A stretch of 64,000 bases of DNA from contig OZ025255.1 of assembly GCA_964019135.1 (NCBI GenBank), positions 23,165,708-23,229,707 on the forward strand, given 5' to 3'. This document shows, piece by piece, positions 783 through 59,446 of the stretch. Position numbers and translations under genes: made by a program. Positions within the stretch are counted from its first letter, which is position 1. Every line of letters begins with the position of its first letter. Source of the stretch: Arenicola marina (Eukaryota; Annelida; Polychaeta; Arenicolidae). The notes beneath the pieces were generated by a model. That model had not been told where the DNA came from, made no database searches, and saw nothing but the letters and a program-made list of their open reading frames with translations.

Positions 783-1030
783 CCATAATTGCCCAAATAT
801 GCGCAATATGTATATGATAGCAGGAGTGGAACCAGGCCGGAGGGTTCAGGGGGCCCCTCCCTCCTTTTTGAGGTAGAAAGCCGTTTCAGCTCCTCCAGCG
901 CCACCGGGAAGCCAATTGACACGTCGGCCGTCAGAGGGAGCCGCTCCTCACCCCAAGCCAAGGCGTGGACTCGCCGGCCCCTCTCAGGTCGTAAACAAAT
1001 TGACGGACCCCTCGGTTGCATTTGTTTAAA
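783..1030 (-). pseudogene. Fragment of a cGAS-like receptor (Mab21/NTase fold)
   Basis: On the minus strand a short open stretch reads ALAWGEERLPLTADVSIGFP followed by VALEELKR. This matches, nearly residue for residue, the third-catalytic-Asp strand of the larger cGAS-like gene at 3925-5492 (LAWGEEWLP...TADLSIGFPVSLEELKH). Similarity stops on both sides: the downstream end passes into unrelated sequence and the upstream end into a C-rich repeat. It is therefore a partial copy about 3.8 kb from the larger gene and in the same orientation, not a working gene. It keeps one base that the larger copy lacks at the frame break, so it is a useful comparison. Nucleotide similarity over the matching core is clear by eye. 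Confidence 0.72.
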
Positions 1031-3924: not shown

Positions 3925-4850
3925 CTATCTGCCCGGGACCGCGGCGGGCACTACGAAGGAGGTGTTGGCAGCTCCCAGAAGCGGGTGTCGGACACCGATT
4001 AGCTTCCTGTCGGTCGCCGTTAGTAGTATGTGGCCCGCCATCCGCTCCAAGCAAGATATCAGGTAGCTCTCATCTGTGACGTCATCATCGCCAGCGAGAA
4101 GGTCTCCCAGTACTAGGAACTTCAGGTAAGCTGACTTCACCGACCAGTTCTTGGTCGGCTCGCCTAAAGCTTCTGCCATGGGAAGAGGCATGTTATAAGC
4201 GCTAACAAGAGCCAATCGATTGCTAACGGCGCCGCAAAGGTGGCACTCGTTGTGGCAGGGTTCTGCTCTCCCCTCGTCGTCGGCCCTCGGGCTGTGATTG
4301 TGAACGCGATTAATTGCTGCAAGAAGTAAAAGATTGGCTGGGGTATTTTCAAACATTAACAACATCTCGCCATTTGGTTGTTGCTGTCGCGGAATTTCAC
4401 CATCATCAAGTGATTTCCGGATGCAAGGCTTGATGTCGGTTAACTTGGCCCCATATATTTCTTCCCAGGTGTCGTCGCTATCGATGTCCGAGCTAGGCGC
4501 TTCTTCGTGCTCCGCCGCCGTACCCTGAAGATCGCAGAGCCAACGAAAAGCGTCCCTCGCCTGTTGAATTTCACTCTCACTGGCTCCCCAGTTGAGGAAG
4601 CGACGACATATAAGTTTCAGTGCCCGAAGACGCCTGACGAGCCGAGACTCGGGCCCCATAGCGGTCAGTGCCTCCACCTCCAGTACCGTGGTAGTAGGCT
4701 TCCATCCGTCTGCATGACCCACAACGTGCACGGTATGAGCGTGGCAGGGCCCGAGTCCTGCGTTATGAACCAGCCGCTTCACTCGCTGTCGGGCGTCATG
4801 CTTCAGCTCCTCCAGCGACACCGGGAAGCCAATTGACAGGTCGGCCGTCG
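3925..4850 (-). CDS. cGAS-like receptor, C-terminal half (Mab21 domain)
   Basis: Open minus-strand frame of about 308 residues ending at a TAG at 3925. It begins in the strand TADLSIGFPVSLEELKH, whose Asp fits the third catalytic acidic residue of the cGAS/OAS/Mab21 nucleotidyltransferase fold. A helical region follows (RLVRRLRALKLICRRFLNWG), then an acidic linker (SSDIDSDDTWEE), a Cys/His cluster (CHNECHLC) that could hold zinc, and KSAYLKFLVLGDLL, the SYxLK-type helix typical of Mab21 C-terminal domains. Family members sense cytosolic nucleic acid and make cyclic dinucleotides that activate STING. The frame does not run directly into the N-terminal half: one base appears to be missing near 4850 compared with the fragment at 783-1030. 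This could be a real pseudogene, an allele or a sequencing error. No intron was needed to read it. Confidence 0.78.
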
Positions 4851-5492
4851 AGGGAGCCACTCCTCACCCCAAGCCAGGGATAACGACACTGCCGGTCGTT
4901 TGCCCCATACCCTGTTGCATCTTGGCGCAAACATACCCCCAGGATGTAATCCGGGAGGTAGCTTTACCCGCTGAAACAACTCAACTATTTTGGTTTTGAA
5001 ATAAAAATGCACCTCAGGCCTCAGTACGTAGTCCCCATTATCGTCTCGTAGTAGACAGTCTTGGATCCTCCATGCGGCTCTAGCAACAGCTGAAACGAGC
5101 ACACGCCACGTGCGAACGGGGGGCGGGGATTCAATGACGCGGATCCCTTCCACTCCAGGGCAGATAACGAAGTCGAATTCATCGGCTTCGCTGCTGAGTC
5201 GCGTCCCGTCATTATGGCTGCCAACCCGATGGACACAGAACCCTCTGAAGGCCGGATCCTGGTCGGCCAGGGCCTGGATCAGTCGGGTCACCAGCTCAAA
5301 GACAGCATTCTGGCGCCCTTGGGAGTCTGCGCTATTGTACCGGAATGTCTTCTCTTCCAAAGAGCTGATTAATTGCCTCAGAGGGACGGGGTTCTGGAGG
5401 TGTTTGTTCACCACGTCACGTTGGCGCGCCACCAGGCGGGCTTCGTGGCATGGTAGGGTGTCCAGGCTGTGCCAGTGCTCCAGTGAAGACAT
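4850..5492 (-). CDS. cGAS-like receptor, N-terminal catalytic half
   Basis: Minus-strand frame starting at the Met of MSSLEHWHSLDTLPCHEARL (5492); it is open upstream to 5636 but the extra residues look non-coding. About 91 residues in it shows VGSHNDGTRL, the G-S helix-capping motif of nucleotidyltransferases, followed by SSEADEFDFVICPG, in which Glu and Asp of EFD occupy the two metal-binding positions of cGAS. The stretch between (helix VFELVTRLIQALADQDPAFR) fits the spine helix. It ends in SLAWGEEWLP, where the frame changes to that of the C-terminal half. Known members act in innate immunity; the exact ligand (dsRNA or dsDNA) cannot be told. Catalytic residues are intact, so the gene was functional recently or still is. 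Confidence 0.8.
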
Positions 5493-5499
5493 TGGTAAG

Positions 5500-6206
5500 A
5501 TATCTGATCTGCAAGCATAAAGGACCATAGTAGCGCAACGCCAGAAGGCACACCAGAACGATTGACCAATACTTACCTCATATATTTTATAGCATGTAAA
5601 CTGCCAAAAGTGGGAAAATGCATTATAGCTTACCATGCTAAGTTGTTAGTTTGACAGCTTAGTTCTAAGGCTTGACGGGCTATTTTATAACTTGTGAAAG
5701 TAAGACTCCCAGACGAAAGTGAATAAAAAAAACTGCTTATATTTTATATATTCGGAAGCATTCACAGAGGAGTCATTACCGGAATATTTTTTGCAGTGTT
5801 TTCCTCAAAAGCAAAAATATCAAGAGTTTGTACTACTGGCGAAACATGAAAACATCGACATGGAAACAAGCGGTTCGGAAAACTTGCCGATTTCGTGCAT
5901 TGACTAAACTTTAAACTTTTGAGACCCGGAGCTCTATCGGAAGGAGTGTTTAATCCTACTGGCCGGTATAAGTTGCGTAAAGGCCGGCATTTGCATGCCA
6001 CTTCCGTTTTCTGTACATGCCGTACAATCTACGATTTGTCGTCATAAGTCGGTTATTTCATTTGTGTGTTTGTACCAACTGTATATTTCCGCGATACTGG
6101 CAAATGGTGAATCAATAGATATATATATTTTTTTTTTAACCATTGGTTAAATTTTTTGAAAGGATTTGTGATCCTACCGCCTTCCTGTTCGATTCATCGT
6201 TGAGGA
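5500..6206. other. Upstream region of the cGAS-like gene
   Basis: AT-rich DNA upstream (on the minus strand) of the cGLR start. The 62-codon plus frame at 5719-5907 has no recognisable motif. No clear promoter element can be assigned. Confidence 0.4.
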
Positions 6207-7802: not shown

Positions 7803-9172
7803 CTATGAACAAAATGTTTTGCTAGCAAAAGAGTTGTTAAGTGTGTAATGCGGCTGATCGTATATTCCCATTAAAATGTTTTCTGAATTCAGCATCAATA
7901 CAGTCAGTTGCCTGCTGCCAAACCCTTTCAAATTCATCCAAAATGTCTTAACCTCACTACAATCAACAAATCTGTGTACTATGGTATCAACCTTATCACA
8001 TTTATCACAACTAGCACTATCAACGAGATGCATCAAATTCAGTCGTTTTTGGTAAGAACCAAATTTATACAGAATGGAGAACTGCATAAATATCATTCCA
8101 AGCAGATTCACTTAACTCAAAAGATTTCCATCTATTTGTCCCTTTGACTTATAGTTGTAGTGGGTGGAAGAATATACATATATACCGCTTTGCTGGGTAA
8201 AGATATAAGATCTGACACTTTAATGTGTTGAATGCAGCCTTGAGTTAACAATAATATTTTTCACACATACGGTATGGCATGACATAGGCTTTAATATTCC
8301 AAAAAGTTACATTTTAAACCGTATTTGATAGATACATCAGATGCAGTTAACAGCTGATATTGCGCACCGATAGGATCCTTAACTTTATTTATAACCTTCA
8401 AGTACCAGTTATAATGAAACACTCAGTCACCACCAATTTGAATGAGTGGATTGAACCACAACCGTTCTTCCAATATGTCGGTTGCATTTTCAATGGTAAA
8501 TTTCGATCTAAGTTCACTCCATGAAGATATTATATCCTTATAAAGGAGCGGTAACTGCTTCATACCGGGCGTATTAATACCGCGTCTGGTGTGAAATAGG
8601 TCTTCTATGGAGATGTGTGGAAAGTAGGCCTCAAGACAAACCTTCCATATTTTATTTTCAGCAATGTATATTCTTTTTACATAACTAATCTGAAGAGACT
8701 GCATCTGCTTATCAAAAAGGGGAAACTTCAGGCCTCCCTTATCAGTTGGTTGAGAAATGACCTGCAACTTAACATTGGGCATGGAGTCTTTCCATATGAA
8801 TGAGGAAATTAGATTGTGAATCTGTTTAATCAAGGTGTATAAATGTGTATATTTGTGACAATATAGGTAAGGTGTGAAAGTGCTAGCTTTTTTGACGTTA
8901 TTCTTTGTCGGAGCATATACGTTACCCAGTACAAACTCACCACCTGTATCCCTGACCACGTTAATTTGTTTATATTCAATGTCCTTTGGAAAAAGAATAC
9001 ATACTCCTCCACTTTCTGTGTGACAAAATTTAATGTCACCCTCCCATTCATTTTTCCACATACCCTCATCCTTTACACAGCTATGCGATTCTTGAATGAG
9101 TACAATGGCATTTTGGTAAAAGGTAGTGAAGTGCCCAAGAGACACAATCGCTTCATTTTCGCTCTCATCCAT
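7803..9172 (-). mobile_element. L1/Tx1-clade LINE, internally deleted and truncated
   Basis: Reading on the minus strand: an apurinic endonuclease fragment (IVLIQESHSCVKDEGMWKNE, GGVCILFPKDIEYKQINVV, VYAPTKNN) runs straight into a post-RT region (FIWKDSMPNVKLQVISQPTD, KGGLKFPLFDKQMQSLQISY), and then, about 300 bp further, a C-terminal zinc-knuckle segment (CDKCDKVDTIVHRFVDCSEV, KTFW). All of the reverse transcriptase core is missing, so a large internal deletion joined the endonuclease to the thumb region. The 3' end is at about 7803. No target duplication identified. Confidence 0.82.
8423..9172 (-). pseudogene. LINE ORF2 fragment (endonuclease joined to post-RT region)
   Basis: A single 249-codon open frame in which the endonuclease part occupies roughly residues 1-95 and the post-RT part residues 105-249. 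The junction near residue 95-105 (KNNVKKASTFTPYLYCH) is where the catalytic RT is lost. The frame being open across the junction is probably chance. Confidence 0.75.
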
Positions 9173-9199
9173 CTCACGTTTATAGAGATTATTTCAAGC

Positions 9200-9783: not shown

Positions 9784-10050
9784 ATGTCTGCAAGTTATTA
9801 TGTAAACAACTGCAAGTTATATCTGCCAATTATATGTGTACAACTGCAAATTATATTTATACATCTGCAAATTATATCTATACATTTGCAAATTATATTT
9901 ATACATTTGCAAGTTATATTTATACATCTGCAAATTATACTTAGACATCTGCAAATTATATGTAGACATCTGCAAATTATATTTATAAATCTGCAAATGA
10001 TATTTATACATCTGCAAATTATACGTATACGTCTGCAAATGATATGTAAA
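9784..10050. repeat. 21-bp minisatellite
   Basis: Twelve or so tandem units of CATCTGCAAATTATATTTATA with substitutions. Since 21 is a multiple of three, both strands hold long open frames with seven-residue periodicity (for example IFIHLQI on plus, YNLQMYK on minus); these are consequences of the repeat, not genes. Confidence 0.95.
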
Positions 10051-10222: not shown

Positions 10223-10223
10223 T

Positions 10224-10505
10224 CCCCGGGACACCCCATCCCCCTGCGCTCCGTTCTATGCCAGTCGAGTCCCCGGGACACCCCATCCCCCTGCGCTCCG
10301 TTCTATGCCAGTCGAGTCCCCGGGACACCCCATCCCCCTGCGCTCCGTTCTATGCCAGTCGATTCCCCGGGACACCCCATCCCCCTGCGCTCCGTTCTAT
10401 GCCAGTCGAGTCCCCGGGACACCCCATCCCCCTGCGCTCCGTTCTATGCCAGTCGAGTCCCCGGGACACCCCATCCCCCTGCGCTCCGTTCTATGCCAGT
10501 CGATT
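10224..10505. repeat. 47-bp minisatellite, six units
   Basis: Six nearly identical units beginning CCCCGGGACACCCCATCCCC and ending TGCCAGTCGA(G/T)T, with starts at 10224, 10271, 10318, 10365, 10412 and 10459. Units are almost invariant, so amplification is recent. Because 47 is not a multiple of three and the unit has no stop in any plus frame, all three plus frames are open; each reads the same peptides in rotating order. Confidence 0.96.
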
Positions 10506-13351: not shown

Positions 13352-16300
13352 TCGTGGCAGCGTACTACGAACCAAGAAACTCAAGAAGTAGAAGAAACTT
13401 GTAGAGAAACTTTATGAAATGGAAAACGCCGGAATACTTGAGAGATAGTAACACCAATACCTGTCAACAACGATACTGTGGTTGTTTACATTGAACATTA
13501 TTGAGAGACTCTGTGTAAAGGAAGTAAAAAAAACATAGAATCACCAAAAATGAACTGGGACGCCCGCCGACCGTCCACAGGAATTTGCACGATTCAAACA
13601 AAAGTGTGAATTGATGTTCCAATTTGCCTGGACTAGCCTGGACTTATCAGAAGAAAATTAGAAGAAACCAGAGAAAATATTTGAAGGACTTAGCAAACAT
13701 TTTGAGCCAGTATCGTGTTTCCGGGTGTATCGGTACCAATTACAAAACATGAAACAAGGAAACAAGGTAATAGATGACTTTATCAAAGACATGAGAGTCA
13801 CAGCAGGGAAGCATAAATTCCCAACTGAGACTTTCAAGGAAGATAGATTTCTGGATCAAGTGATAGGGGGATGTAACTCTGTCACTGAAGGAAATCAATA
13901 TAATCACGACAGAAGAGGCAACAAGGAAACAAATGGAAAGTCTTTCTGCCTCCCAAATAGTTACCAGCCACTCCCAGAGAGATCATTTGCAAAGAAAACC
14001 TAGGGGAACACCTGACAGGAATCGTCACAAGTGTGGCCGGTTACACAATGTATACCCAAAAAATGCATGTCCTGCCTTCGGCACATCATGTCGAAAATGC
14101 ACTAAAAGGAACCACTGGGCGTCAGTATGTAGAATTGGGCAGGTACAATCATACCCAAGAAAACCCTTCGTTTTCAGAACACATCAAAGTCGCAAGAGAA
14201 TACACAACGCAATTTTCATGCTGTTGACTATCAGCAAGAAGAATATGTATAATCTGTAACATATGATATGAATGAATTTTCATTGGATACCCTGGTAGCC
14301 ATCTTGGAAGGATCAAACACACAAGAAAATGACACACGAGAAGAAGTTTATGCAACACTGGAAATCATTCTGCCGAAGCAACAAGAACCAAAAAGACTCA
14401 AAGCCAAAATAGACACAGGGGCAAGTCGAATTATTATGCCAATTGATGTCTATCGTCGTCTATACCCTGATAGTTTGAACAACAATGGCTATCCTAAAGA
14501 TGGTGTGCTTAAACAGAGTGGAATGATATTCTGTGGTTATGGGGGACCAATCATAAAGCAGCTTGGAAGTGTGGGCGTGCCATGCCAATACCAGTCATTA
14601 CGCTTCAACTGCAACTTCTTCATCACTGACTGTCAAGGACCTGTTCTAATTAGCCTCCCTACAGCAAGACGGCCCAAACTAGTGACATTACATTGCCCCG
14701 TGGAAATCTGCATCGAATAAACCCTCTTCCATGACAGGTTCAAGCAACCACAGAAGCAGACATGTTACCTTCGCCGAGGAATCAAAGTCAAATCAACAGA
14801 GCTCTATGCATATTAATACAGAGACACCACTGAGTCAGCGGCCGTCCATTAAGAAGAAAGCAGATATAAAGCAAATGAACCCTGAATGTTTTGATGGTGT
14901 GGGTTATTTTCACAACTATACCTACCATATTACAACAGACCCGTCGGTGAAACCTGTCATACAAACACTGCGACGAGTTCCCATTGCCCTACAGACACGC
15001 CTAAAGAAGGAATGAAATGAAATGGAGGCCCAAGGCATAATCGCTCAAGTCAATAAACCTACAGACTGGGTCAATTCTTGGTTATCCGGGAGAAAAATAA
15101 TTGTCGGTTACGGATATGACTGGATCCCAAGGATTTGAATCAAGCCATCAAAAGGGAACATCTCCCCATCCCCACATTGGAGGAAATTACACCCAGACGT
15201 TCAGGCTCAACACTATTCAGCAAATTGGATGCCAAACAAGGGTATTGGAATGTTCTTCTTGATGCAGAATCGTCCCTGCTGACCACTTTCAACTCCCCCT
15301 TCGGAAGATATAGATTTACCCGCATCCCATTTGGTTTGCGAATGTCACAAGATGTGTTCCAATTAAAAATATACGAAACATACAGCGACTGTATAGGTCC
15401 CATAGACATAGCAGATGATATCCAACTCTATGGGACAGGACATGACCTGCACCTACATGAAGCAATGGAGAGAACGCGAAAGGCAGAAAGGCAGGACTAC
15501 ACAAAGTGCATGATCAAAGACAAGGAATGTGCCTTCTTTGGTAATGTGTACAGTAGCAAAGGTGTTCAACCAGATCCAGAGAAGGTGAGAGTTATCCAGG
15601 AGATGCCCGCACCAGATGATAAGAGGGAGCTACACATCTCCTTGGGTATGGTGACATACTTTGGCTCATTAATCCTAAGCTTGTCACAACATACAGACCA
15701 TCTTCGTGAGCGGCTCCGACAGGATGTGGATTTCCAGTCGGACGCGTCATATGACGCGTCATTCACAACCATGAAGAAATTGATTGCAGAGACAAGAACG
15801 CTTGTCTATTACGACCGGAAAAAGCCTGTAACCCTGGAAGTTAATGCTAGCTGTAAGGCTTTAGGGGCTGCGCAGGTACAGGACGGTCACCATATCAGCT
15901 TCGCCAGCAAGTCACTGATTGACACAGAACGACGACATGCCAATATTAAGAGAGAATTGCTGGCCGTCGTTTATGGAATCGAAAAATTCCGCATGTACCT
16001 ATACGGACGTCATTTCCTCATTTGGTCTGATCATAAGCCGCTGGAGCAAATAAACAAGGAACATCTGACACAGGCACCCCCAAGGTTGCTAAGGATTCAA
16101 GGATACGAATTCAGCATCATGTACAAACCCGGAGGCCAAATGGTTGTAGCTGATGCATTGTCGAGACTCAGAGCACGCGACCACGAGGCAGTGGATGACA
16201 TGAAGGTGAATATCCATAACACTATGAATGTGTCTACAGTCAGGATGGAGGAAATTCGCAGAGAGACCAGCAATGATGAACCACTACAAATGCTGATACA

Positions 16301-17520
16301 GCAGGTTATCGAAGGCTGGCACTGCAACATTAAGAAGATTCAAACCGCACCGCGCCAGTTTTGGACAATAAGAGATGACATCTCACTCGAAGGCGGAGTG
16401 TTACTTGCAGGAAGCACCCTAATAATACCAGAACGTTTGAGAGCCAACATCCTACAACAAATCCATAAAGGACATCAGGGAAGTGCCAAATGCAAATTGA
16501 GAGCCCAGGCCACAGTCTATTGGCCAGGGATATACAAAGACATTGAACAACTGGTTGCCAGATGCAATGAGTGTCAACCGCACTAAAACAGCCAAACTAA
16601 GGAGAGCAATATCCATGGAGATACCTCCCAGACCGCGGCAGACCCTCAGCGCCGATCTGTTTCTGCAGGACAATAAATGGCACCTGATTATCACAGACTT
16701 ATATAGCAAGTTCCCATTTATCAGGGCCATCACGGACACCTCTAGCAAATCTGTCGTGAACCCTATGAAGAGTGTGTTCAGTGAACAAAGAATACCCCAA
16801 CAGATCTTCACTGACAACGGAACACACTTCACCCCAAGGAAAACACAAGAGTGAGAAATATGAATTTACATTGATTGGTCGAACGACAACTACAGACTAC
16901 CAAGAAGACAATGTCTAAGTGTAAGGAGTGTAACCAGGACCCCTATCTCGCCCTTCTAACCCTGAGGGCCACGCCATTGGATTCAAGGGCCGGATCCCCA
17001 GCAGAACTCCTGCAGGGTAAGAAATTTAAGACTACACTACCGTCAAAGATACCGGTCCCCAGAGACCAAGAACACCACAGGTCTCACCTTCGGGATAGAC
17101 AGGATGTACACAATCAATTGTACAACAGGGGGACGACTGAACGACCAGACTTCCTTTTTCAACAACCTGTCAGAGTTCAACACCCGATCGCCAGGACTTG
17201 GCAGCGAGCCACAATCATCGAAATTAGGGCACAAACACCGAGGACCAAATGGTGTCCAGAACGCCGAAGGAAATGTTGTCAGGAGAAACACCATCCACAT
17301 CAGACCTGACAACAGGGACTTTCAGCCGCTAAGGTCCGCCTCACCACCTGAGCGTCCCGGTGAGGTCGAACATCGGCCGCTACAGGACCTGCCGAGAGCG
17401 CAGCAAGATACGACCACATCGCCCATATAGCAGCCAACGTCTCCCGTGGTCCGCACGTCTGACCAGACCAAGGTCGTCCCATTGATGACCCGCTAAGTTT
17501 TTATTCCAGGGAGGACCGTT
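13352..17520 (+). mobile_element. Ty3/Gypsy LTR retroelement, broken fossil
   Basis: Parts in canonical Gypsy order on the plus strand: gag with a CCHC zinc knuckle (about 13.7-14.2 kb), aspartic protease with IDTGAS (about 14.4 kb), reverse transcriptase (about 14.9-15.5 kb, with KLDAKQGYWNV and the ADD box), RNase H (about 15.8-16.2 kb), integrase zinc-binding domain and catalytic core (about 16.4-16.85 kb) and integrase C-terminal region to about 17.4 kb. Order PR-RT-RH-IN identifies Ty3/Gypsy. A purine-rich tract precedes TGATGTCATCC at about 17521, a plausible 3' LTR start. The element is broken, with roughly half a dozen breaks. It predates the A/B duplication since flanks are shared by both copies. 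A matching LTR pair could not be confirmed. Confidence 0.9.
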
Positions 17521-19959: not shown

Positions 19960-21350
19960 TCACTTTTTTCCTTCCCTTGTAACACCGCTGTCCCCTTTCC
20001 GGCACCTCCCCTTCCTGCTCACAGTCTTTAAACGACACCGCTATCACCTTTCCAGTAACTCTTCTTCCTGCGCCCTCCATTTTAAATTCACCGTTGTCAT
20101 CTTTCCGGTACCTCCCATTCCTGCTCCTTGTCGCCAACTACACCGCTGTCACCTTCCCGGCACCGCCCCTTCCTGCACACAGTCTTCAAACTACACCGCT
20201 GTCACTTTTCCGGTACCTCCTCCTCCTGTCCTCTGTATTTATACTTCACCACTGTCACCTTTCCGGTACCTCCTCTTCCTGTGCCTTATCTCCAACTACA
20301 CCCCTGTCACTTTTCCGGTACCTCCTCTGCCTTCTTACAATCTTCAAACTACACCGCTGTCACCTTTCCGGTACCTCCCCTTCCTGCACACAGTCTTCAA
20401 ACTACACGGCTGTGACCTTTCCGGTACCTTCTCTTCCTGCGCCTTCCATTTTTACTTCACCGCTGTCACCTTTCCGGTACCTCCCATTCCTGCGCCTTGT
20501 CTCCAACTACACCGCTGTCCCCTTTCCGGCATCGCCCCTTCCTGCTCCTAGTCTTTAAACGACACCGCTGTCACCTTTCCGGTACCTCCTCTTCCTGCGC
20601 CCTCCATTTTAACTTCACCGCTGTCACCTTTCCGGTACCTCCCATTCCTGCTCCTTGTCGCCAACTTCACCGCTGTCACCTTTCCGGCACCTCCCATTCC
20701 TGCTCCTTGTCGCCCAACTACACCGCTGTCACCTTTCCGGCATCTCCCCTTCCTGCACACAGTCTTCAAACTACACCGCTGTCACCTTTCCTGTACCTCC
20801 TCCTCCTGCGCTCTGTATTTATACTTCACCACTGTCACCTTTCCGGTACCTCCTCTTCCTGTGCCTTGTCTCCAACTACACCGCTGTCACTTTTCAGGTA
20901 CGTCCCCTGCCTGCACACAGTGTTCGAACTACACCGCTATCACATTTCCGGCATCTCCCCTTCCTGCACACAGTCTTCGAACTACACCGCTGTCACCTTT
21001 CCGGTACCTTCCATGCCTGCGCCTTGTCTCCAGCTGTACCGCTCTCACCTTTCCGGTACCTCCCCATCCAGCACCCAGTCTTCATACTACAACGCTGTCA
21101 CCTTTCCGGCACATCCCCTCCCTGCACCATCCGTTCTAACTTCACTGCTGTTATCTTCTTGGTACCTCCCCTTCCAGCGCTTTGTCTCCAACTACACCGC
21201 TGTCCTTTTTCCGGTACCTTCCCTTCGTGCGTCTTGTCATTGACCGCCATCACCTTCCCGGTACCACCCCTTCCTGAATCCCGTCTTGTAGCTACACCGC
21301 TGTCCCCCTTCTGATACCTCCCTTTCCTGACTTCCTTCTTCCAACTACAC
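19960..21350. repeat. 52-bp minisatellite with higher-order structure
   Basis: About 26 units of ACCGCTGTCACCTTTCCGGT followed by ACCTCCC(A/C)TTCCTGCGC and a variable tail. Tail variants (TCTTTAAACGAC, CCATTTTAACTTC, TTGTCGCCAAC, CAGTCTTCAAAC, CTGTATTTATAC, TCTCCAAC) recur in the same order about 527 bp apart, for example TCTTTAAAC at 20025 and 20552, which shows a block of about ten units was duplicated as a whole. Long open frames on either strand come from the repeat. A shorter array sits at 52680-53275. Confidence 0.93.
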
Positions 21351-21359
21351 TGCCGTCAC

Positions 21360-22480
21360 ATTTTCAAGATGATTTGCTTGGAACCATGGCTCATCTTCGT
21401 AATATTGAGTTAACAGAGATCTTCTCTCAAACAAAAGGACCCCCCCCCGACGAAATTAGGGGCATTTGAAGCAGAAGGTGACTTTATTTCGTCAAAAGGG
21501 CCTTTTTAGGGGCCCCAATATCGTCACCAACTTTGAAGCCCCAGAAATCACTGAAAATTAAGTATCTTTGTATCGTAATACAACTGAACGTGAGGAATAG
21601 TTTCTCATGCACGTGCACGAAAAGGCGGCCCCTCCATTATCGCTCAGATATAACAAAGATGGCTTGTGCAATTGATGCTCTTTCTTACCGAGACCAACTT
21701 TTAGACGTCCTAAATCAAGATACCAACTTACAGCACTCCATTTAGTGCCTTATATTTTGAAATTTCGTCCTGTTTTTGTTACGAAAATGTTGTAAAGAGA
21801 TTAAACATTGTAAGAAAACATATGTTACGACTGAGATGTGCTTGTCAGAGAAGGAGGCAGCTGTTATTTTTTGGTAACGAAATTAAGACACCGCCGAAAT
21901 TAAGGCACCATTTCTGTAATCAATTACGAGCGATCTGGTTATTAGGTATTCTTTCTGCATATCTACGACGCTTCGCCGTGGTATTCCCATCAATGTGCAA
22001 CGTGCCTATATGTCAGTATAACGATTATATCCTAAATGGAGGCCGTCGTACTCGGAAACACAACCCCCTGGATGCATCGATCGCTTGGTGGAATAGCGTT
22101 ACCAAACTATAAATTCAACGCTTCTTTATACATACATGGCAGTGGTGGCGACATAATTAACCATGTGATTAGTGCTTCAATATTTCACATGCAGATCTAG
22201 TAATTAGTTACATAAAGTACAACCGACATCATTTACGACAGGGCAATTATTGACGGTATAATAGAAGCACGTATTTTGATTAGAAAACGAAAAAAACATC
22301 TGTTAACCCGGTGACCTATTGATGTCCCCTAAAATTTCGACATGTAGTGAATCAATATTTCAGCATCCAATGAAGCAAATAAGCCGTGATGTAATTGTGT
22401 TGCGGTTTGGACATTATCTATTGAGAAATACATCAATATAAAAATAGCGCGAATTTGGAACATTAGGCCATTTATTTGCC
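21360..22480. other. Copy-A-specific region
   Basis: Absent from copy B, where the minisatellite joins directly to the segment equivalent to 24966. Contains several ends of the TTAATTTCGTCA repeat family and a run of nine Cs (about 21440). The frame at 21822-22112 shows no known motif. Confidence 0.45.
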
Positions 22481-46059: not shown

Positions 46060-46420
46060 GAACATTCGCGTAATATTCGCTCAATGTTATTTCTGTGTTA
46101 TGTTACGGACGAACATTCCCGTAATATTCGCGGAATGTTATTTTAGTGTTATGTTACGGAAGAACATTCCCGTAATATTCGCAGAATGTTCCGGACGAAC
46201 AATCACGTAATATTCGCCGAGTGTTACGGACGAACATTCCCGTAACATTCGCAGAATGTTATTTCCGTGTTATATTTAGGACGAACATTCCCGTAATAAT
46301 CGCAGAATGTTCCGGACAAACAATCACGTAATATTCGCAGAGTGTTACGGACGAACATTCCCGTAATATTCGCTCAGTGTGATTTCCGGGTTAGGTTACG
46401 AACGAATTACGAGAATGATG
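46060..46420. repeat. Tandem AACATTCCCGTAATATTCGC repeats, left end
   Basis: Six to seven units of roughly 50-60 bp with GGACGAACATTCCCGTAATA and TTCGCAGAATGTT; related inverted motifs at the right end (50440-50600: AACATTGGCGGAATATTC, GGTAATATTCCCGTAACATT). Confidence 0.85.
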
Positions 46421-52679: not shown

Positions 52680-53275
52680 ATTGTTGGCCCTACTCTTCCA
52701 ACTCCATCGCTGGCACCTTTTCCGTTCCTCCCCTTGCAGCGTTCCAGCTTCACTGATATGCGTCCAATCACACTGCTGTCTCCATCTTTGGTCCCTCCTC
52801 TTCTTATGTCATATAACCAACTACACCGCTTTTACCTTTCAGGTACCTTCCCTTCCAGCACCCCGTCTTGTAATTACACTGCTGTCACCCTTCCTGGTAC
52901 CTCCCTGCCTGCGTCGTGTCGATAACTACAGCGCTGTCACCTTTCCGGTACATCCCATTCCTGCACACAGTCTTTTAACTACACAGCTGTTACCCTTCCG
53001 GTACCTCCCATGCCTGCGCCTTGTCTCCAGCTACACCGCTCTCACCTTTCCGGTACCTCCCCTTCCAGCACCCTGTCTTCATACTACAACGCTATCACCT
53101 TTCCGGCACATCCCCTTCCTGCGCCCTCCATTCTAACTTCTCTGCTGTTATCTTCTCGGTACCTCCCCTTCCGGCGCGTTGTCTCCAACTACACCGCTGT
53201 CCTTTTTCCGGTACCTTCCCTTCGTGCGCCTTGTCTTTGACCGCCATCACCTTTCCGGTACCACCCCTTTAAGGA
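52680..53275. repeat. 52-bp minisatellite, copy B
   Basis: About eleven units of the same ACCGCTGTCACCTTTCCGGT family as 19960-21350. The last part (53131-53275) is repeated at 56937-57072. Confidence 0.9.
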
Positions 53276-59142: not shown

Positions 59143-59359
59143 TAGCTGTCTAATATATGTTGGCATGTTAGAGTTATGGATACTGTTGAACTATCTGTGA
59201 TGGAGTGTGACTTGCTGTGGAAAAAACTATAGGTGGGGATGTGAAATGACAGCTGGTCCAATGCATGTTGGCTTGTTGGATTTATGGATACTTTTGAACT
59301 ATCTGTGATAGGGTGTGTGACTTGCTGTGGATAAAACTATAGGTGGGGATGTGGAATGA
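59143..59359 (+). repeat. 108-bp direct repeat before second CHST15-like start
   Basis: Copy B counterpart of 26955-27172, with the same two units. Confidence 0.8.
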
Positions 59360-59446
59360 CTAAGCTGGCACAGAGCAGTACAACTCGTTTACATCACGTC
59401 AAGCTAGAACGTGAGATTGCGCCATCTTATCTCTGCGAGAACGGCA

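Follow-up and report, generated by a model that had tools for sequence, protein, structure and literature searches.

In a 64,000-nucleotide stretch of the Arenicola marina genome (contig C8, positions 23165708-23229707, referred to below as the window), we identified a minus-strand gene of the cGAS fold, similar to the cGAS-like receptors (cGLRs), whose reading frame is broken once between its two lobes. An annelid source is also probable from the mitochondrial contig C762, on which the cox1 match crosses 13 TGA codons and whose first 10 kb bear, all on one strand, frames recognised as nad4L, nad4, nad1, nad3, nad2, cox1 and cox2, with tRNA-Val lying between nad4 and nad1; this gene order is the ground pattern of annelids. 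The gene has a single copy and branches deeply within a large family of cGAS-fold receptors. We consider that the break most probably reflects the real loss of one base, which would make the gene a young pseudogene or a null allele, and we assign this reading a probability of about 0.68. A broken gene is by itself ordinary; the main interest lies in the large cGAS-fold family to which it belongs, which is largely hidden from Pfam.

The gene is carried by two frames. The N-half frame begins with the ATG at 5492 and encodes 229 aa before the stop at 4803-4805, the last 15 or so being foreign residues 3′ of the break, and the C-half frame, on the same strand, is open from 4863 to its stop (312 aa). 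Against a family profile built from 18 paralogs, with the window copy left out, the halves align with profile positions 3-218 and 221-505, respectively, at the scores given in Table 1, and just two profile positions are missing at the joint between them; the sole opposite-strand frame listed scores -1.7 bits. When the 1568 bases were shuffled 2000 times with their dinucleotides preserved, the longest open stretch across the three forward frames averaged 119 codons and peaked at 267, with 19 shuffles reaching 223 codons and none reaching 312. Because both frames are homologous to a profile free of the window copy, a chance origin is excluded. A putative 3′ splice site upstream of the ATG would weakly suggest a 5′ leader exon.

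Table 1. Features of the broken cGAS-fold gene and of its partial duplicate; positions are those of the window.
Feature	Positions	Strand	Basis
cGAS-fold (cGLR-like) gene, from ATG to stop, with a single frame break	3925..5492	-	Open reading frames, profile score, shuffles
N half (nucleotidyltransferase lobe: GS, E-x-D)	4806..5492	-	143 bits to family profile
C half (third Asp, helical lobe, H..C..C..C); stop at 3925-3927	3928..4863	-	188 bits to family profile
Break interval, one base fewer than in the fragment	4849..4860	-	Profile positions 218/221; fragment joint 4849/4850
Gly-Ser of the activation loop	5217..5222	-	Alignment columns G91, S92
Glu-x-Asp pair (E 5180-5178, D 5174-5172)	5172..5180	-	Alignment columns E105, D107
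Third catalytic Asp codon, a few residues past the break	4840..4842	-	Sequence and paralog alignment
Family-specific His..Cys..Cys..Cys cluster, C lobe	4234..4302	-	H183, C202, C205 invariant in paralog alignment
Possible 3′ splice site 5′ of the ATG	5492..5520	-	Pyrimidine-rich stretch ending in CAG, by eye; weak
79-bp duplicate of 4802-4879, one extra base at 933	885..963	-	94% identity

The initial annotation had read the locus as a minus-strand Mab21/cGAS nucleotidyltransferase whose halves keep the GS motif, the E-x-D pair and the third Asp, and the family profile, the fold and the motifs all agree with it. In the window copy, GS is followed by twelve residues and then by E-F-D, and the third Asp stands in the C half. 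The same arrangement (GS, twelve residues, [ED]hD) recurs in all 19 rows of a paralog alignment, 18 of which are distinct (L024 repeats L011), and 18 of the 19 carry the third Asp (L033 has Asn). One His and two Cys of a cluster in the C lobe are invariant in the 19 rows, and the first Cys of this H..C..C..C cluster is present in 15 of them and in the window copy; the cluster is possibly a zinc site. An intact paralog has the two-lobed cGAS-type nucleotidyltransferase fold, and the family profile matches the cGAS structure PDB 7lz3 (E value of 2.9e-6, positions 49-156 only). A check against the Pfam Mab-21 profile had also been proposed, with the lack of a profile hit to speak against the reading. 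A Pfam search of both halves and of the fragment gave no match at E values up to 10, a negative that the family profile and the fold overturn.

How should the break be explained? It falls between 4860, the end of the last aligned N-half residue, and 4849, in keeping with the earlier placement of a frame change near 4850. First, we compared the frames of the halves at 71 distinct paralog places in the genome (867 Mb, 762 contigs) at which both halves were scored less than 600 bases apart (73 pairs, two of them being second pieces of the same gene). At all 71 places, 15 of which are near-identical copies in one tandem array on contig C7 and 56 of which lie outside this group, the two halves share one frame; in-frame stops occur at three (two TAG and one TAA). 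Second, with a full-length paralog as the query, all 72 non-self matches among the best 73 of 491 candidates scored lie in one frame, two of them with a TAG. The two samples overlap and are biased toward high-scoring, intact members. They show that frame errors are rare in the assembly and that true nulls exist in the family.

These counts bear directly on the alternative that the missing base is an assembly or base-call error and that the animal's own gene is intact and encodes a working cGAS-like receptor. Our reading is based on one assembled sequence, so this alternative stays a rival; moreover, the rest of the gene is unbroken, and single-base gaps are a common type of long-read error. 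However, the frame is kept in 71/71 paralog places and 72/72 long matches, so that such errors seem rare here, and the site contains no homopolymer (longest run, 3). We therefore regard an error as unlikely, albeit as the most serious competitor. Of the options raised initially, a young pseudogene and a polymorphic allele are jointly favoured by the shared frames, by the lack of a homopolymer and by the nulls in the family, and a base-call error is less favoured; the suggestion that the break hides a working sensor fares worst, given that the product as assembled has neither the third Asp nor the C lobe.

Third, the window contains a short duplicate of the region of the break. This fragment aligns with the gene over 79 columns with four mismatches and one gap, its extra base (933) stands opposite the 4849/4850 joint, and it crosses the joint in one reading frame. 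With the frame preserved both in the fragment and in the other paralogs, the break is most simply explained by a base lost from the window gene, as had been supposed from the start. The fragment had been introduced as a 'third-strand' comparator at 783-1030 with one extra base at the joint: the extra base stands, whereas clear homology is limited to 885-963, and the fragment lies on the same strand as the gene. Beyond the 79 columns it has no clear homology to the gene. We rejected the idea that it is a decayed full-length tandem copy, its clear homology being confined to those columns, and also the idea that it is part of a dispersed repeat, since the 361 bases around it match only themselves, the gene and two 41-base edge matches on the same contig. 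No further copy of the fragment was found in the genome, and no other family pieces besides the halves and the fragment were found among the 2157 open reading frames of at least 20 residues in the window (next best E value, 2.4).

Might the full protein be made in spite of the break, by programmed frameshifting or by splicing? A donor-like GTRAG at 4867, just 5′ of the break, would be suited to the latter. However, there is no AG from 4860 to 4810, and any intron from this donor deletes the third Asp codon; at 69 of the 71 paralog places, a single open frame runs through both halves without interruption, the other two differing by an in-frame stop. Because the paralog halves share one uninterrupted frame, no intron is usual at this joint, and we rejected an intron across the break, there being no acceptor that spares the third Asp codon. 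Programmed -1 frameshifting was likewise rejected, the N frame containing no slippery heptamer of the form X-XXY-YYZ. We judge a bridged break to be the least probable of the explanations considered.

The break appears to be recent. Neither half contains a further stop or frame shift. In simulations of neutral decay (400 runs for each of the indel:substitution ratios 0.05, 0.10 and 0.15), the chance that no further lesion would have arisen was 0.13, 0.045 and 0.022, respectively, at 2% divergence and 0.05, 0.005 and 0.005 at 3%. From the simulations and the absence of further lesions, we deduce that the break is younger than approximately 2-3% neutral divergence. Divergence of this order lies in the range of polymorphism of many marine invertebrates. 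The fragment and the gene differ by four changes in 78 aligned bases, or approximately 2.6% per lineage, which is too near the age limit of the break for the order of duplication and break to be told from divergence.

Comparison with the paralogs indicates that the gene was under constraint before the break. Its codon positions 1 and 2 are more conserved than position 3 against each of eight paralogs, its two halves agree in codon-position G+C, and 26 of the 29 invariant columns of the family are kept. Several observations weigh on the other side. An invariant Pro has been replaced, a Phe is displaced or missing, and a Leu coincides with an alignment gap. Of the nearly invariant columns, the window copy keeps 42 of 67 (63%), a lower share than in any of the 18 intact paralogs, of which the most divergent keep 52-56 of 71-81 (67-79%); this low retention possibly points to relaxed constraint before the break. 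Constraint was judged from distant paralogs in the same genome only, and the model of the C half of the window copy is only moderately confident, with a Z score to cGAS below 8.

What would such a loss have meant? Judging from the fold and the active-site residues, intact members of the family probably act as cGLRs do, recognising a foreign ligand and producing a cyclic dinucleotide that STING-type receptors would receive. The sequenced haplotype would have lost a single base downstream of the E-x-D pair and upstream of the third Asp, so that the assembled sequence encodes a 229-aa N lobe. Because the third metal-binding Asp and the helical lobe are missing, this product is very probably inactive, and the window copy would then take no part in messenger synthesis. 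Because the loss appears recent, the gene would be a young pseudogene or a segregating null allele, an instance of the gain and loss that are ordinary for a large immune-type family, and the site of the break is a place at which innate sensor genes of this family could show the segregation of nulls. We also considered that the truncated N lobe might be retained as a decoy or regulator of other members. The N half is conserved and open throughout, and truncated members do exist, as the in-frame stops at 3 of the 71 places indicate; however, the C half would then be expected to decay, yet it has not, and a frame break at this joint is absent from all 71 other places. Such a role is very improbable, and we infer that a real and recent loss of function remains the best reading.

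The family to which the window copy belongs is extensive. A genome search with the N half gave at least 149 non-self matches (150 of 326 candidates were scored), and one with the C half gave at least 133 non-self rows (129 of 382 scored). They merge into at least 204 distinct places: 105 on contig C6, 42 on C3, 27 on C7 and 30 spread over eleven further contigs. All these figures are lower bounds. Open frames of at least 500 codons are present at 181 of the 204 places, and nine places have a row that holds an in-frame stop. Within this family, the best-scoring match of the window copy has 38% identity for the N half and 32% for the C half (up to 48% over short stretches), identity to the 18 paralogs over the whole alignment is 28-33%, and no DNA match in the assembly was found beyond the gene itself and the fragment, nor any second copy of the gene. 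In a tree of the 18 paralogs, the window copy joins L010 (support of 0.89) on a long branch (1.42). Because of the low identity to paralogs, the lack of a DNA match and the long branch, we regard it as a lone, deep lineage.

Elsewhere in the family, 17 tandem places of one member are found at C7:29.86-30.07 Mb with a spacing of approximately 13 kb; their open frame is 542 aa in 15 and 457 aa in two, and they are near-identical by score and stop-free among the matches listed. This array is a recent amplification. On contigs C9 and C19, members lie within open frames of 1030-1047 aa, whose long extra parts may represent fused domains. STING ligand-binding exons were found at one strong place on C7 and at six places on C6 (19.0-20.9 and 33.7 Mb; 10 matches), so that C6 carries both the six STING-like places and 105 of the 204 family places.

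We tentatively suggest, as a possibility that we hold with low confidence, that the window copy may be a casualty of an uncharted lineage-specific radiation, in which sensor and STING-type receptor would be expanding together on C6 and nulls would mark a fast turnover of the repertoire. Were this so, the radiation would comprise at least 204 places with the cGAS fold, largely overlooked by Pfam and about half of them on C6, with a newly positioned zinc-like cluster in the C lobe. Among the open-literature matches listed, there is no report of a cGLR/cGAS radiation in annelids.

Less than 1 kb upstream of the gene, the segment 6215-7110, with short repeats at both ends and a frame resembling the N terminus of pogo/Tigger elements (by eye), is probably the remnant of a DNA transposon. 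On the minus strand, 7803-9193 holds remnants of a non-LTR retroelement, with a weak zf-RVT match at 7803-8111 (E value of 0.003, below the cut-off); the assignment of 8426-9193, for which Pfam gave no match, is by eye alone. A degraded Gypsy-type retroelement occupies 14253-16583; its RNase H, integrase zinc-binding and reverse transcriptase domains fall within 15120-16583. Tandem arrays whose repeat units span 21 to 369 bases lie at 1-409, 9821-10045, 10223-10503, 19982-21363, 46060-46406, 52818-53237 and 59157-59360, and, by eye, the arrays at 19982-21363 and 52818-53237 are built from the same type of unit.

How does the family compare with known systems? The conventional Mab-21 genes (PF03281) of the same genome belong to the same superfamily. 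In contrast to the family, they match Pfam (23 matches), whereas only 1 of 18 family members reaches even an E value of 0.019, and the window halves give no match. At C14:27181026-27191482, approximately 10 kb separate two Mab-21 frames of 396 codons that match Pfam, contain no stop and are almost identical to each other.

Unlike the invertebrate cGLRs, such as Cv-cGLR1 of the oyster (PDB 8gjw) and PDB 7lt2, the 18 distinct paralogs and the window copy lack [QT] before GS. The entry 7lt2 is named 'Mab-21 domain-containing protein' and is a beetle cGLR. In PMC9980059, the cGLR pattern is given as [QT] before GS, 8-20 residues, [DE]h[DE], 50-90 residues and a third acid. The family has the GS, the 8-20 residues with [DE]h[DE] and the third acid of the pattern as given there, but GS is preceded by V, A or I, and the spacing before the aligned third Asp is 107-163 residues in the paralogs and approximately 108 in the window copy. 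Taken literally, with the letters counted as hydrophobic being our own choice, the pattern matches none of the 18 paralogs; three of three Pfam-positive Mab-21 frames from the same genome, used as controls (two of them near-identical), also fail it, and without [QT] it matches all 18 paralogs through some other acidic residue. We therefore dropped the pattern as a discriminator of the family, because the controls fail [QT] and the relaxed form passes 18/18.

Vertebrate cGAS shares with the family the two-lobed nucleotidyltransferase fold, the GS loop, the E-x-D pair and the third Asp, at 11-14% identity in structural alignments. The stretch between the second and third acids is longer in the family than in cGAS, and, by eye, the family alignment has no Cys/His cluster at the presumed position of the cGAS zinc thumb, in the C lobe between a strand and a helix, the H..C..C..C cluster of the family being located further on.
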